Positions 16,543 through 35,560 of a stretch of 39,469 nt of DNA are shown in pieces. Both the position numbers and the translations under genes were made by a program. The notes under the pieces are model-generated. The model was given only the letters and a program-made list of their open reading frames with translations, searched no databases and was not told the DNA's origin. Positions within the stretch are counted from its first letter, which is position 1. Every line of letters starts with the position of its first letter. The stretch lies in contig NZ_NFLJ01000028.1 of assembly GCF_002160865.1 (NCBI RefSeq), positions 1 to 39,469 of the forward strand. Direction: 5' to 3'. Source of the DNA: Massiliimicrobium timonense. GTDB taxonomy: Bacteria; Bacillota_I; Bacilli_A; Erysipelotrichales; Coprobacillaceae.

Positions 16543-16544
<2 letters not shown>
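16515..16544. terminator. Bidirectional terminator between converging genes
   Basis: An 11-bp stem AAAAAACATGT (16515-16525) / ACATGTTTTTT (16533-16543) with loop ACTAGTG. T runs follow on both strands, so it can end transcription of both the plus-strand orphan and the minus-strand GH1 gene. Confidence 0.85.
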
Positions 16545-18652
<2,108 letters not shown>

Positions 18653-18696
18653 ATAACATCCTCCTGTAATCATCATATAAAAAAAATAAGCACAAT

Positions 18697-18722
18697 CAAA
18701 AAAAGTTTCCAAAAAGGAAACT
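18697..18722 (-). terminator. Terminator of the RpiR gene
   Basis: On the minus strand a 7-bp stem AGTTTCC / GGAAACT with a 5-base loop is followed by TTTTTTT. It separates the RpiR gene from the YczE/GH1 operon. Confidence 0.85.
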
Positions 18723-19462
18723 CACATTTGTAAACCAAGAAGAATAATATCAATAATATATCTCATCATATATACATGATAAGAAAAATGCAAACAGTGT
18801 ATAAAAATTTGATTTTCACAGAAATTGATATCATTCTGACATGTAATCAACCATTTATTAACTTTTGTTTTTCTTAGTCTTTGAATAATTCTTTTATCAT
18901 AGTGAAAAGTATCTCCATTTATGCTTATAACAATAAGTAAATCTTGATTTGTAAAAGAATATTCTTTTTTTAAATCTACGTCACAAATAATTGTATTGAT
19001 ATGATATATATTCAATTCCCTTTGAATATTATAAATAAGTGATCGTGCATCCCCTTGAGCATATAAGTAAATTTTACGGGAAGTTTTTATATTTTTAATA
19101 AGTTCTTCTATTTGAGTATAATCTAAATATTTTTGAGTGTACTGTATATTTTTAAGAAAATTATCAGAAAAAATGCTTATGTTTTCCTTTAAAGATAATT
19201 TTTTATCAATGAAAAGCTGCCTTCTTTCTAAGGAATCTAAATATGAATAACATTCATATATAAATTCCTCATAATTTTGATAATCTAGATTTCGAATACA
19301 CTTTGAAACTTGTCCTTTTGATATATAACATGCTTTTGCTATATCTTCAATAGTCATTCTAGGAATCTCTGCAATATTTTCCTTAATAAAAACACAAAAA
19401 ACATATAATGAATTTTTACTTGTATGTCCATTAATAATATCATTAACCTTATCTATAATCAT
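18722..19462 (-). CDS. MurR/RpiR family transcriptional regulator
   Basis: A roughly 246-residue regulator with an N-terminal RpiR HTH (MTIEDIAKACYISKGQVSKC, then IRNLDYQNYEEFIYEC) and a C-terminal SIS sugar-phosphate-binding domain (IYLYAQGDARSLIYNIQREL, DLLIVISINGDTFHYDKR). The usual G-x-G-x-S of the SIS site reads Q-G-D-A-R-S, and the second loop S-I-N-G-D-T. It probably senses a phospho-sugar and controls the operon downstream. Five Met codons cluster at the start; GGTGAT sits best for the ATG at 19465 or 19462, and the ORF can extend to 19474. It has its own terminator, so it is not on the same mRNA as the GH1 operon. Confidence 0.85.
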   Translation of the reverse strand: MIIDKVNDIINGHTSKNSLYVFCVFIKENIAEIPRMTIEDIAKACYISKGQVSKCIRNLDYQNYEEFIYECYSYLDSLERRQLFIDKKLSLKENISIFSDNFLKNIQYTQKYLDYTQIEELIKNIKTSRKIYLYAQGDARSLIYNIQRELNIYHINTIICDVDLKKEYSFTNQDLLIVISINGDTFHYDKRIIQRLRKTKVNKWLITCQNDINFCENQIFIHCLHFSYHVYMMRYIIDIILLGLQM

Positions 19463-19540
19463 CATTATCACCATTCACTTATATAACGAAAAATAAAATG
19501 CTATAACTGTCATTACAATTATAACATTTATAAATGAAGA

Positions 19541-21112: not shown

Positions 21113-22399
21113 TTATTTTTCTTCAATACCTTCTTTTTGAGCTATTGATTTTTCATAGACTTTAAAGAATGGATAATACACAACCATACTTATAACAATC
21201 AATACACACATAAAGATAACATTTCTTAAATCTAATGCTGATAAGAATCCTTGTGCAAAGAATGGTGTAAATGATGGATCAACAATATATCCCATACTGA
21301 CTAAACCTATACTTTGTGCCAAATAACCAAGTCCAATAGAAATACATGGCATGAAAACAAATGGTATCGCTAAAATAGGATTTAAGACGATTGGCGCACC
21401 AAAAATAACGGGTTCATTAATACCACAAATTCCTGGAATAACGCTTAAACGTCCAATCGTTTTTAAATGTTTCACTTGAGAAAAGCACATCAATAAGACA
21501 AGACCTAATGTGTTACCTCCACCACCAAGAACTGCATATCTATACATCTGTAAGTTCATGATATGTTCTGCACTTTGTCCAGCATTAATCAATTCTGCAT
21601 TTAATCCTGAATTTGTAATGCCTAAAGTGAAAACAATTGGGAAAATAATAGAAGAACCATTAATTCCAAATAACCATAAAATATTTGAAAAGGCAAAGAT
21701 TCCCATATATGCCCATACGTTATCAACACCAGAAATAGCAGGTGTTAAAATACTCATAATAAATTGTGGTAGTGATTGTCCACTCACTCCCATTAAAATT
21801 AAATTTAAACCATAAATAATGATAATATTAGCTGCTAATGGCAATAATGAATTGACAAAGTTTGTAACGGCCGTTGGTACACTATCTGGAAAAGTAAAGA
21901 TAACTTTTGTTCCTACCAAGCGACATATTTCAACTGAAATGAGTCCTACAATTAAAGCCACAAATAAGCCATCTGCTCCTAAGTATGTCATTGATAACTG
22001 TCCATCAGTTACAGGTGCTGAAATCATCAAGAATACACACATAGAAATAATACCATTGATTGCTGGTTTCATTTGATAGCTTTCAGCCAAACAATAAGCA
22101 ACGCCAAATGCTGTCACTAAACCAATTAATCCCATAGTCATTGTATATGGAATAGTAATGGTATTATAATTTGTTACTGCCCATTGTTTCCAGGCAATCA
22201 TAGCTTTTAGGAAAATATTTCCTGTATTCATATCCACGATATCTAAATTAATTGGTGGATTGGCGATAATTAAAAATATTGATCCTACAACAATCAATGC
22301 AAGTGACATCATCATCCCATTAGAAATAGCCTGTAAATGTCTTTGATTTCCTAACTTATTTCCAAGCGGTGATAATAACTGTTCTAATCGACTAATCAT
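21113..22399 (-). CDS. PTS EIIC permease, lactose/cellobiose family
   Basis: A 428-residue EIIC of the cellobiose/lactose family with the motifs LFGINGSSIIFPI and GINEPVIFGAPIVLNPILAIP, as in the EIIC at 486-1772. About ten membrane helices are visible. It would import and phosphorylate a sugar with EIIA and EIIB encoded elsewhere. The glycine-rich GGGGNTLGLVLL segment is typical of the family. The gene starts 15 bases after the RarA-C-like gene at 22415-23026, so the two form an operon, divergent from an RpiR regulator. No hydrolase follows. The substrate is open. Confidence 0.93.
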   Translation of the reverse strand: MISRLEQLLSPLGNKLGNQRHLQAISNGMMMSLALIVVGSIFLIIANPPINLDIVDMNTGNIFLKAMIAWKQWAVTNYNTITIPYTMTMGLIGLVTAFGVAYCLAESYQMKPAINGIISMCVFLMISAPVTDGQLSMTYLGADGLFVALIVGLISVEICRLVGTKVIFTFPDSVPTAVTNFVNSLLPLAANIIIIYGLNLILMGVSGQSLPQFIMSILTPAISGVDNVWAYMGIFAFSNILWLFGINGSSIIFPIVFTLGITNSGLNAELINAGQSAEHIMNLQMYRYAVLGGGGNTLGLVLLMCFSQVKHLKTIGRLSVIPGICGINEPVIFGAPIVLNPILAIPFVFMPCISIGLGYLAQSIGLVSMGYIVDPSFTPFFAQGFLSALDLRNVIFMCVLIVISMVVYYPFFKVYEKSIAQKEGIEEK

Positions 22400-22414: not shown

Positions 22415-23026
22415 TTAAAATTGCCATCCATTAAACTGAAATGCTGTATCCACAACATTTTCTGGATCATATTCTTCTAAGATTTTGGCATATCTTTCTT
22501 TATAATCATTATCAATTTCTTTTTGTGGATAAACACGGCTCGCTTCATTTAAGAAATGGAATGAATCTCTTCCCATTGCCTGTCCACGTTGTGTATGTTT
22601 ATCTAATGCATAATCAGGAATTTCTGGTAATTTCCCCATTGCAAAAGATTTGATACAAATATTTTTCAATAAATCACTTGAACGATCTTTTTCAGATTGA
22701 CACATATATCTAATTGCATGAATAAAATAGATTGGTCGATCTCCATCTGCATAATCAAATTCTCTGCTCATTTGATATAAATTATTCACAACAATAGCAG
22801 CCATTGGATTTCCCATACCAATATCTTCTACTGAAATTGTTAATAATCTTCGCCATAATTTTTCTTCTAACTGTGGTGAAGAAATATACAATTCATAAGC
22901 GAACATACATGCCTGTTCTTCTAAACCTCTACGAATAGATTTTTGTAATGCAGAGATCACTTCATCTCCTGCATAACCATTTCTTGTTGTAATTTTTGAC
23001 CATGGATCATACATTTTTTTAGCCAT
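22415..23026 (-). CDS. Stand-alone RarA/MgsA C-terminal-like protein in a PTS operon
   Basis: A 203-residue protein without a P-loop. The segment GYAGDEVISALQKSIRRGLEEQACMFAYEL (split: GDEVISALQKSIRRG and LEEQACMFAYELY) followed by LWRRLLTISVEDIGMGNPMA resembles the C-terminal oligomerisation domain of the RarA/MgsA AAA+ family, where S-A-x-x-K-S-x-R and S-E-D-I-G are conserved. I chose the ATG at 23026 after AAGGAGCAAG; the longer ORF extends through the divergent RpiR gene and is not coding. It precedes the EIIC gene by 15 bases. A similar protein in sugar operons of Lactobacillales comes to mind, but I cannot confirm it. Its function is unknown. Confidence 0.72.
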   Translation of the reverse strand: MAKKMYDPWSKITTRNGYAGDEVISALQKSIRRGLEEQACMFAYELYISSPQLEEKLWRRLLTISVEDIGMGNPMAAIVVNNLYQMSREFDYADGDRPIYFIHAIRYMCQSEKDRSSDLLKNICIKSFAMGKLPEIPDYALDKHTQRGQAMGRDSFHFLNEASRVYPQKEIDNDYKERYAKILEEYDPENVVDTAFQFNGWQF

Positions 23027-23079
23027 GAATTCTTGCTCCTTTCTTTTAAATATGACATAATTGTTTTGGAGGTGTTGAT

Positions 23080-23748
23080 ATGAATCTAGAGCATTTATCC
23101 GAAAAATTTGAATTAAATGATTTAGAAAAACAGATTGTTCGTTATATTCAAGAACATTTAACCGACTTAAAGTCAATTGGTATACGTCAAATGGCAAAAG
23201 ATAATTATACAAGTACATCAACCATTTATAAATTATGTAATAAATTTGGTTTTGATGGTTATAGTGATATGATTTATCATCTGACATCTACCAAGGATAA
23301 TCATACTATCGACTTTCACGAACAATATCGTTCTTTCTATGAACAATTCCAATCATTACTTCAAGATCATTCCAAACGTATTATTGTTTTTGGACTAGGA
23401 TTCTCTGCTCCTATTGCAGAATACATGCAACAACGTTTAACCCTTTTAGGTTATCAAGCTATGTGTGTTGTACATATGGAAATGTTTAGTCCACATTTTT
23501 TTGATAACACTGTTTTTATTGTTGTTTCTTATTCTGGAAAAACACCACGCTTAAACGAAATTATTAAAACGGCTCATCATAATCATGTTCCTATCATCAG
23601 CTTTATAGGTAATGCTCACTCCCCTATTATTCAACTATCTTCATTACCTATTACAATTGGTCAATATGATTCATTCTCCCATGATTTGAATCGTCCCAAC
23701 ACCTTCTTTGGTGAAGCTATTATTGCTTTTGAAACATTATTATTTTAA
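23080..23748 (+). CDS. MurR/RpiR family transcriptional regulator
   Basis: A 222-residue RpiR regulator. The N-terminal HTH is IGIRQMAKDNYTSTSTIYKL and CNKFGFDGYSDMIYHL. The SIS domain begins IIVFGLGFSAPIAEYMQQRL, with the second loop VVSYSGKTPRLNEI, both in good agreement with a sugar-phosphate sensor. It is shorter than most RpiR proteins by about 50 residues. TTTGGAGGTGTTGAT precedes the ATG. It is divergent from the EIIC operon over only 53 bases, so its promoter and that of the operon must overlap or lie partly in the coding ends. It very likely controls the EIIC operon. Confidence 0.9.
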   Translation: MNLEHLSEKFELNDLEKQIVRYIQEHLTDLKSIGIRQMAKDNYTSTSTIYKLCNKFGFDGYSDMIYHLTSTKDNHTIDFHEQYRSFYEQFQSLLQDHSKRIIVFGLGFSAPIAEYMQQRLTLLGYQAMCVVHMEMFSPHFFDNTVFIVVSYSGKTPRLNEIIKTAHHNHVPIISFIGNAHSPIIQLSSLPITIGQYDSFSHDLNRPNTFFGEAIIAFETLLF

Positions 23749-33740: not shown

Positions 33741-34760
33741 TTATTCTCTAATGGCTAGAATATTATGTGGCTCAATTCCAACATACACTTTTTGTCCTTC
33801 ATCAAACAGTGTAAAACTTCTAAACAATGTTTCTGATTTTAAAATAACATCATGACAATTTAATGTATATCGTAAAACATTTCCTCTTGAAATATAGTGA
33901 CTAACTTTTGCTTCAAAACTATAGACATTTTGATCTTGAATTGGTTCATTTTGAATAGAAATGGTTTCCGGTCTAATTGCATAATAATGATTATCAAAGT
34001 CTTGTTTTGGTAGCAATGTTTTTAATTGATGATTATCTAATATATTATAATGTCCTATAAATTCAGCCGCAAATTTAGAAACAGGGTGTGTATATAATTC
34101 TACAGGATTTCCACTTTGTTCAATGATTCCACCATTCATTAAATGAATTTTATCAGACATAATCATGGCTTCATCTTGATCATGTGTTACAAATATAGTT
34201 GTAATTTTTAACTCTTTTTGTACACGTTTGATTTTTTCCTGTAACTCACGTCTTAATTTTGCATCAATTGCACTTAATGGTTCATCTAATAATAGAACTT
34301 TTGGTTCCATAACGATTGCCCTTGCGATAGCTACACGTTGTTGTTGTCCACCAGATAATTGACTCGGATAACTTTTTTCTTTTCCTACCAAATCTACCAT
34401 TTCAATGGCACGCTGTACTTTTTGAGCTATCTGATTTTTATCTACTTTTGCGATTTTTAAACCAAAGGCAATATTTTCCTCTACATTCATATTTTGAAAT
34501 AATGAGTATTGTTGAAAAACCATCCCTATACCACGTTTTTGAACTGGTACATCTGTAATATCTTTACCATCTAATATAATTCTCCCTGAATTAATCTGCT
34601 CTAATCCTGCTAAAGATCGTAATAATGTAGATTTTCCACAACCACTTGGTCCAAGTAATGTAACTAATTCACCTTTTTCTACATCTAAATGAATATTTTT
34701 TAAAACTTGATTTTCACCATCGTAGCTTTTGCATATATCTCTAAATTCAATGTATGCCAT
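33741..34760 (-). CDS. ABC importer ATPase (FbpC/PotA/PhnT-like)
   Basis: A 339-residue ATPase. Walker A is GPSGCGKST (37-45), the Q-loop is VFQQYS, the signature is LSGGQQQRVA (135-144), Walker B LLLDEP with the catalytic Glu160, and the H-loop is THDQDEA. The C-terminal 110 residues form a TOBE-type regulatory domain, as in iron, polyamine and 2-aminoethylphosphonate importers. Its ATG overlaps the stop of the second permease by one base (TAATG). It powers the importer encoded by this operon. Confidence 0.94.
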   Translation of the reverse strand: MAYIEFRDICKSYDGENQVLKNIHLDVEKGELVTLLGPSGCGKSTLLRSLAGLEQINSGRIILDGKDITDVPVQKRGIGMVFQQYSLFQNMNVEENIAFGLKIAKVDKNQIAQKVQRAIEMVDLVGKEKSYPSQLSGGQQQRVAIARAIVMEPKVLLLDEPLSAIDAKLRRELQEKIKRVQKELKITTIFVTHDQDEAMIMSDKIHLMNGGIIEQSGNPVELYTHPVSKFAAEFIGHYNILDNHQLKTLLPKQDFDNHYYAIRPETISIQNEPIQDQNVYSFEAKVSHYISRGNVLRYTLNCHDVILKSETLFRSFTLFDEGQKVYVGIEPHNILAIRE

Positions 34761-35560
34761 TAATTTTTCCCCCTCTTTGTGACTGCTTTATTTTGAATCA
34801 TTAATGTTAATGTTGAAATGATAAATGTTGTAATAAAAAGAATAACGATAATTGCACTTGATAATTGTCCTGATTTTGACATTGTTTGATATAAATAAAT
34901 ACCTGCTGTTCTAAACGCACTTCCAGCAATCATATTAACAACGACGAAATCTGCAAATAACATTGTAAAAGCTAACATCATTGTTGAAATAATTCCATTT
35001 TTCATTTGTGGAATAATAATTGAAAAGAAGGCATGTAGTTGAGAACATCCTAACACCTGTGCAGCTTCTACAACACATTTCACATTTAATGCGCCAATTG
35101 TATTTTTTAAACCTCTAAATGTATATGGTAATATAATGATACAGTAAGCTCCTACTAAAAGAAAAAGACGATTTGATAAAAAGCCGGGTTTACCTGAATA
35201 TAGTGAAATTATACCTACTGCTAAAATAACACCTTGAATGGCATATGGAATATTACATAAAATTTCAATATACTTTTCTAATTTTGGCATATATAATGTT
35301 GTCACATAAAGAACTAATAATATAGCCAAACTGCAAATACACACTGGCACAAAAGAAATAACTAAAGATCTTAATAATGAATTAATAAAAGCTCCATCTG
35401 TTAATATTTCTGAATAGAAGCTAAGAGTAAAACCAGTTGGTAAAATATCCATCCATGCTGTAAAAACAGAATATAAGAAAGTTAAAGCTAATGGTATAAT
35501 TAAAAATGCTGCGATAATAAATAAAATACATCCATCCCATAATTGTGTTTTTAATTTCAT
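34760..35560 (-). CDS. ABC importer permease, second subunit
   Basis: A 266-residue membrane protein with six helices. The EAA loop that contacts the ATPase is VVEAAQVLGCSQLHAFFSIIIP (E-A-A-x-x-x-G at its core). The start overlaps the stop of the first permease as ATGA, and its stop overlaps the ATPase start, so all three are tightly coupled. The layout (two permeases of unequal sequence plus one ATPase with TOBE) is that of the FbpB/PotBC/PhnUV group. Confidence 0.92.
   Translation of the reverse strand: MKLKTQLWDGCILFIIAAFLIIPLALTFLYSVFTAWMDILPTGFTLSFYSEILTDGAFINSLLRSLVISFVPVCICSLAILLVLYVTTLYMPKLEKYIEILCNIPYAIQGVILAVGIISLYSGKPGFLSNRLFLLVGAYCIIILPYTFRGLKNTIGALNVKCVVEAAQVLGCSQLHAFFSIIIPQMKNGIISTMMLAFTMLFADFVVVNMIAGSAFRTAGIYLYQTMSKSGQLSSAIIVILFITTFIISTLTLMIQNKAVTKRGKN

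Follow-up and report, generated by a model that had tools for sequence, protein, structure and literature searches.

Why should the C-terminal domain of RarA/MgsA, a replication-linked AAA+ ATPase, be encoded on its own in front of a sugar transporter gene? The question is raised by a gene located at 22415-23026 (minus strand) of the window, i.e., the whole stretch of 39,469 nucleotides of Massiliimicrobium timonense DNA (contig NZ_NFLJ01000028.1) analyzed in this work. An earlier note on this DNA had described the product as a 203-residue protein devoid of a P-loop, encoded 15 bases upstream of an EIIC gene and close to a divergent rpiR, and had proposed that an oligomerisation fold had been recruited for a role in sugar transport or in its control. 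The stand-alone MgsA_C protein is referred to hereinafter as MgsC, which is only a working name coined in this analysis.

The window protein and its neighbours

The open reading frame (start codon ATG at 23026, minus strand) and the pattern search confirmed both the length of 203 residues and the lack of a P-loop, and no Walker B pattern was found in this sequence either. The single family recognized by Pfam was MgsA_C (PF12002; residues 55-170, 37.9 bits against a cut-off of 27, E=2.2e-9), the result containing no AAA family and no EIIA or EIIB domain. Among solved structures, the best relatives of the protein are C-terminal fragments of RarA, with 2r9g retrieved at E=6e-12 in the sequence search of the PDB. 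The AlphaFold (AF2) model (pLDDT 92.3, pTM 0.77) could be superimposed on 2r9g over 122 residues, from 10 to 135 of the model (VIA Z 16.1, rmsd 2.3), and on 8g28, 3ctd, 3pvs, 3bge, and 2qw6 with Z values of 13-16, while residues 136-203, roughly the last 65, aligned more poorly to the RarA fragments. The collar domains of the clamp loaders (RFC, DnaX) possess a related helical fold and ranked below the RarA fragments (Z of about 6-9, about 6-14% identity over the aligned residues), being absent from the matches of the sequence searches; unlike MgsC, they are embedded in ATPase complexes that load sliding clamps. Hence, the structure prediction and the profile search that had been proposed as checks both upheld the likeness to the C-terminal part of RarA/MgsA, and the homology is real, well above chance. 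Concerning the two motifs on which that likeness had first been based, K-S-x-R was found as K-S-I-R, whereas the other one should read S-V-E-D-I-G instead of S-E-D-I-G.

The equivalog models of RarA (NCBIfam) gave at best 22.4 bits for MgsC (cut-off 668), and NF011289 gave 17.1 (cut-off 570); the protein is an MgsA_C protein by domain and not a RarA by the AAA+ criterion. It shares with the C-terminal domain of RarA/MgsA/WRNIP1 (PF12002; 2r9g, 3pvs, 3bge, 3ctd, and 8g28) the fold and a homologous sequence, but it lacks the AAA+ module. A defence function was also considered and dropped, the PADLOC anti-phage models having no match at E 0.01 for the window protein (P0001) or for two of its phage relatives.

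A lone C-terminal domain might also be one half of a split or broken RarA, or the visible part of a longer protein. Two full-length RarA-type ATPases are encoded by other contigs of the same genome (G000 C1 and C21), and at least one full-length RarA match was present in all of the 14 MgsC-carrying genomes examined. The sole open reading frame of at least 100 aa with a P-loop in the window codes for an ABC ATPase (33744-34787), and the in-frame extension of the gene up to 23287, which would give a protein of 290 aa, is without a P-loop, much of the added stretch being antisense to rpiR. Since full-length RarAs are present, MgsC is conserved (see below), and the window holds no ATPase half, a split or broken RarA is ruled out, as is an ATPase half hidden in the extension. 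The earlier note had allowed for an unrelated fold and for an ATPase half encoded elsewhere; the fold turned out to be related, and what is encoded elsewhere is complete RarAs. As a side observation, the second full-length RarA of this genome is a divergent paralogue (G000:C21:58889-59365, 428 aa, 140 bits) accompanying a typical one, and two full-length RarAs also occur in several related genomes.

Downstream of mgsC, at a distance of 15 bp, lies the gene for a PTS EIIC of the lactose/cellobiose family (21113-22399, minus strand, start at 22399; 428 aa; PF02378, E=2.7e-44; TIGR00410, the lacE/celB family, 267.8 bits against a cut-off of 236), to which the cellobiose EIIC 3qnq is the closest protein of solved structure. 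In agreement with what had been noted, the gene on the other side (23080-23748, plus strand) is divergently transcribed and codes for an RpiR-family regulator of 222 aa with HTH_6 (E=1.3e-13) and SIS (E=6e-13) domains.

The 53 bp separating the two divergent genes (23027-23079) harbor an rpiR promoter-like element, consisting of TTGCTC (23033-23038), a 17-nt spacer, and CATAAT (23056-23061), with a TGA just before the latter. Near relatives retain this element as TTGCYC-N17-CATAAT with the TG extension, and the block TGACATAAT is invariant in the intergenic alignment of nine relatives; a generic promoter scan of the region did not list the element, owing to its consensus threshold. In most window-type loci (about 37 were compared) the divergent gap measures 39-75 bp and accommodates both ribosome-binding sites in addition to the promoter-like element, so that little space is left for a separate mgsC-EIIC promoter. 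The near-palindromic block ATTATGTCATA in this gap may serve as an operator for RpiR or as a -10 region shared by the two sides. From the layout we infer that RpiR controls the mgsC-EIIC unit. A few kb away (16543-19474), the window also contains genes for a GH1 glycosidase, a YczE-like membrane protein, and a second RpiR-like protein; yczE-like genes adjoin mgsC operons in two other loci as well (L015 and L018).

Distribution and genetic context in bacteria

The scan of one genome per species disclosed 61 loci coding for MgsC proteins sharing 52-98% identity, distributed among Bacillota, Fusobacteriota, and one member of the Actinomycetota. A copy was detected in 51/294 genomes of the order to which the window belongs, in 7/296 genomes of its class (at more than 50% identity), in 8/65 genomes of the family of the Collinsella carrier, and in just two of the 391 genomes of a Clostridia sample; additional copies reside on plasmids of Enterococcus faecium and Cetobacterium. 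Public records annotate the protein as hypothetical. In spite of this label and of a domain content equivalent to a partial RarA, which might suggest a functionless decayed fragment or passenger born from the fission of a rarA gene, the protein is intact throughout three phyla, with 53 invariant columns in 48 sequences, and is coupled to EIIC throughout while intact rarA genes are present in the same genomes. We consider this origin scarcely credible and, in practice, refuted by conservation. In 66 pairs of window-type loci, used alike for all three genes, the median identity is 73% for MgsC, 58.6% for EIIC, and 36.5% for RpiR.

The survey of neighbourhoods that had been suggested in the note revealed an EIIC gene in 60/61 loci, the remaining contig ending inside mgsC, and a divergent rpiR in about 40. 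The most common layout is that of the window, i.e., rpiR divergent from mgsC followed by the EIIC gene, with no other conserved gene; in some of these loci (L032, L040, and L043) EIIB and EIIA genes follow rpiR, and in most loci of the window type no degradative enzyme is linked. In the second layout mgsC belongs to a full PTS operon including a PRD or LevR-like regulator, EIIA, EIIB, and EIIC, often together with a GH4 glycosidase closest to 6-phospho-alpha-glucosidases, and in other cases with purine nucleoside phosphorylase and phosphopentomutase. EIIA and EIIB are encoded in related operons by genes separate from mgsC. All these EIIC, EIIA, EIIB, and GH4 proteins and regulators are ordinary members of the kinds encoded by PTS operons of the lactose/cellobiose family that carry an RpiR or PRD gene. 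What sets the present operons apart is mgsC, which takes the second place, usually held by a phospho-glycosidase gene.

In two loci (L235 and L238) two stand-alone copies are placed in tandem within one operon, and in a third one (L018) they occupy two adjacent operons; this arrangement suggests heteromers or subfunctionalisation. In the conjugative plasmid 3 of E. faecium DO (L065) an IS110 transposase gene lies between mgsC and the EIIC gene, an insertion that probably disrupts the operon.

In the tree of 116 lactose-type EIICs, those linked to mgsC fell into two supported clades of 47 and 20 rows. The unlabelled rows within these clades are themselves linked to mgsC, since L190 is the EIIC of the L055 operon, L143 that of the L017 operon, and L166 belongs with the first of the two mgsC copies of L018; row L049 is misplaced because its EIIC is split. 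No mgsC was found within about 6 kb of 40 other lactose-type EIIC genes of the same genomes. This association with particular EIIC clades, together with its absence beside the other 40, ties MgsC to particular transporter subfamilies, and hence probably to particular substrates.

The main rival of the reading favored below is a physical one, in which MgsC would help to regulate or assemble EIIC/EIIB: attached to the transporter, possibly in oligomeric form, it would adjust or block uptake, in a manner comparable to that of SgrT, a small protein acting on PtsG. This explanation is in agreement with the direct adjacency of the two genes in nearly all close relatives, with the tracking of two EIIC clades, and with a minimal operon in which mgsC is joined by the EIIC gene alone; moreover, the soluble fold of MgsC is that of a domain known to oligomerise, RarA itself working as a tetramer (PMC8735627). 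A dependence on EIIC is weakened, however, by loci of the same subfamily lacking a PTS. In two of them (L136 and L137, 58% and 54% identical) mgsC comes after an ABC importer of the CUT1 type, recognized by its permease and binding-protein families, and in two others (L248 and L249) it lies between another CUT1-type importer, which comes first, and a gene for a type I phosphodiesterase/nucleotide pyrophosphatase. In the MgsC tree, L136 and L137 are nested inside the sugar-uptake clade, which indicates that one kind of transporter gave way to another while MgsC was retained; such a swap argues that MgsC acts on the imported compound and not on EIIC, the ABC-linked cases being few, namely four loci of which two come from one genus. 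MgsC is also more conserved than EIIC, which is unusual for an accessory partner. On the whole, we regard the binding of the transporter as possible but rather doubtful. The database labels of two of these entries merit checking: MT838878 (L137), recorded as a bacteriophage, looks like bacterial DNA carrying an ABC sugar importer, mgsC, and an AraC-type regulator, and OY725846 (L136) is labelled as a 386-kb plasmid.

A second group of neighbours points to nucleosides. In five loci of the window's order, mgsC is divergent from a Bmp/PnrA-type nucleoside importer, mostly with a nucleoside hydrolase, and two of the five (L242 and L244) also harbor nucleoside deoxyribosyltransferase and phosphorylase genes; an ADP-ribosylglycohydrolase is likewise found among the neighbours of mgsC. 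In Collinsella (L063) the order is PRD-EIIA-EIIB-EIIC-GH4-mgsC, with nucleoside hydrolase and ribokinase genes further downstream. Overall, nucleoside genes lie near 18 of the 84 MgsC loci and near none of 40 control EIIC loci, a comparison to which no p-value was attached because the cases derive from about five lineages, 20 of the 84 loci were picked as divergent copies, and some of the search references were taken from case loci.

Phage relatives and fixed residues

The profile scan of IMG/VR revealed a sister group in 37 phage loci coding for MgsC-like proteins (28-42% identical), while a search of viral_contigs with the P0001 or the L137 protein as single query returned nothing. These loci contain a TAGT glycosyltransferase gene in 34 cases, a parB-like gene in 31, and a UDP-glucose dehydrogenase gene in five, the latter being found beside mgsC also in Microbacterium phage Gina, in a haloarchaeal plasmid, and in a phage-like contig; no transporter is present in the phage cassettes. 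Scans with a single TAGT added few loci, one of which (L298) carries the TAGT, parB-like, and UDP-glucose dehydrogenase genes without mgsC in the stretch examined. The triad formed by the parB-like, TAGT, and mgsC genes recurs in the IMG/VR phages L099-L134, often adjoining terminase genes, and looks like a DNA-glycosylation cassette, sometimes with the addition of the dehydrogenase. TAGT enzymes have been proposed to put sugar on modified cytosine in T6-like phages (PMC13390438), so that in phages, too, MgsC would go with sugars and nucleic-acid bases, and without a transporter. This context adds to the ABC- and nucleoside-linked loci in arguing against a partner of EIIC. As for the proposal of the earlier note, the occurrence of a stand-alone RarA C-terminal fold in sugar-uptake operons holds, and extends to three phyla, while a role in transport itself or in its control is unsupported or too narrow for a subfamily that lies beside ABC and nucleoside importers and nucleoside-degrading enzymes and whose phage sister group is accompanied by glycosyltransferases.

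The phage proteins (phrog_33349, labelled "ATPase", and phrog_16866, labelled unknown; Gina and Kitkat) are stand-alone and bear the same fixed residues as MgsC, from which they differ in belonging to the ParB-TAGT(-UDP-glucose dehydrogenase) cassettes and not to uptake operons. The relatives in phages Gina (L199, Microbacterium phage, 43219-53403; 206 aa) and Kitkat (L198, Arthrobacter phage; 239 aa) are recorded as "AAA-ATPase" and show no AAA+ module; the label appears on about 60 records of Microbacterium and Arthrobacter phages, apparently by copying. Structure matches of the MgsC model in BFVD showed the same fold in proteins of giant viruses (Orpheovirus, Pithovirus, Pandoravirus, and Cedratvirus); weaker matches were two Heterosigma akashiwo virus proteins named "putative glycosyltransferases", and fusions may be involved.

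Six positions, R33, R115, D142, H144, T145, and G148, all present in the window protein, are invariant or almost invariant in 108 stand-alone sequences (67 from a PTS context, two from an ABC context, 33 from phages, and six distant ones), the invariance of the motif being partly built in for the phage set, which was found with a pattern containing DxALDKHT. The six distant members, found by other searches, still retain D142-x-H144-T145-x-x-G148, and R33 is replaced by K in three of the 67 PTS-context rows. In the 17 RarA sequences used for comparison these positions are mostly occupied by G, N, D, H/S/P, Y, and A, so that R33, R115, and D-x-H-T-x-x-G replace the usual G, N, and D-x-x-Y-x-x-A, while S25, K29, R32, R60, E67, D68, and K113 are common to the two. 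The fixation of charged residues in the stand-alone family suggests a putative ligand or active site.

These data bear on two further explanations. It might be supposed that MgsC acts on RarA or on the replication machinery, by forming mixed oligomers or by mimicking the C-terminal domain, and so couples nutrient status to DNA repair. The homology to the RarA tetramerisation domain and the full-length RarA of every carrier genome examined agree with this idea, as does one locus (L247) in which a full-length rarA-like gene lies directly upstream of mgsC. Nevertheless, RarA is near-universal, and its presence says little; the stand-alone proteins group clearly apart from RarA, from which R33, R115, T145, and G148 distinguish them, and mgsC lies among genes for uptake and catabolism instead of repair. 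We deem such a link to DNA repair very improbable. In L247 (G911:C10), the two genes are followed by a tetR-like gene and a lactose-type PTS.

Alternatively, MgsC might be a non-catalytic oligomeric scaffold holding metabolic enzymes together, which in phages would be the glycosyltransferase and the UDP-glucose dehydrogenase. The collar/tetramerisation fold would suit this task, and partners do vary with the context (EIIC, GH4, purine nucleoside phosphorylase, TAGT, and UDP-glucose dehydrogenase) around a constant MgsC. On the other hand, charged residues and a D-x-H-T-x-x-G motif fixed across such unlike partners fit a ligand site better than shifting interfaces, and many operons contain no enzyme to be scaffolded; a scaffold thus seems quite unlikely to us.

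A proposed cytosolic partner of uptake systems

Taking these data together, we tentatively favor a role for MgsC in the cytosol, where it would act, probably as an enzyme, on an imported compound; we grant this idea somewhat less than an even chance. In this view, the protein is soluble and without an ATPase, descends from the RarA C-terminal (clamp-loader collar) domain or is its sister, constitutes a family of its own, and serves particular uptake systems as their dedicated partner in the cytosol. In the window, RpiR, probably sensing a phosphorylated sugar, would control the two-gene mgsC-EIIC unit; EIIC, with EIIA and EIIB provided from elsewhere, would import and phosphorylate the substrate, and MgsC would next act on it, most likely as a hydrolase or transferase or else as an obligatory binding protein. 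The putative site would comprise R33, R115, and the D142-x-H144-T145-x-x-G148 motif, next to K29, R32, R60, E67, D68, and K113 shared with RarA. Judging from the neighbouring genes, the substrate may be a sugar-bearing, often nucleoside-like compound, perhaps a glycosylated nucleoside. It must be said that the RarA/clamp-loader collar fold is not known to have a catalytic role, which counts against an enzyme.

A broader speculation, which we judge unlikely, is that the MgsC-like proteins belong to one family that converts or binds nucleotide sugars or glycosylated nucleosides, which phages build and gut bacteria degrade. According to it, the phage ParB-TAGT(-UDP-glucose dehydrogenase) cassettes would make sugar-modified DNA, and the PTS/ABC operons of gut bacteria endowed with 6-phospho-alpha-glucosidase, nucleoside phosphorylase, or nucleoside hydrolase would import and degrade the corresponding compounds. 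If this were true, the RarA C-terminal domain, too, would bind a ligand through its conserved polar face.

The fold is a known one; the stand-alone family and its setting are apparently undescribed, the open-licence papers searched having yielded no description of a stand-alone RarA C-terminal form, of its PTS-operon setting, or of the phage cassette, which is weak evidence given that scope.

Few genome-maintenance proteins are as conserved as RarA/WRNIP1, whose molecular function is still obscure. That its C-terminal domain also exists alone, in a highly conserved form and in a metabolic setting of uptake and catabolism, as opposed to repair, suggests that this domain has a role beyond the joining of subunits, and MgsC offers a small soluble protein for testing that role. 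The analysis also corrects the "AAA-ATPase" labels of dozens of phage proteins, and the link to sugars and nucleosides common to phages and bacteria provides a concrete set of ligands for screening. For the bacteria harboring it, MgsC is a candidate for the missing catabolic step of widespread gut-bacterial PTS operons that encode no other enzyme.
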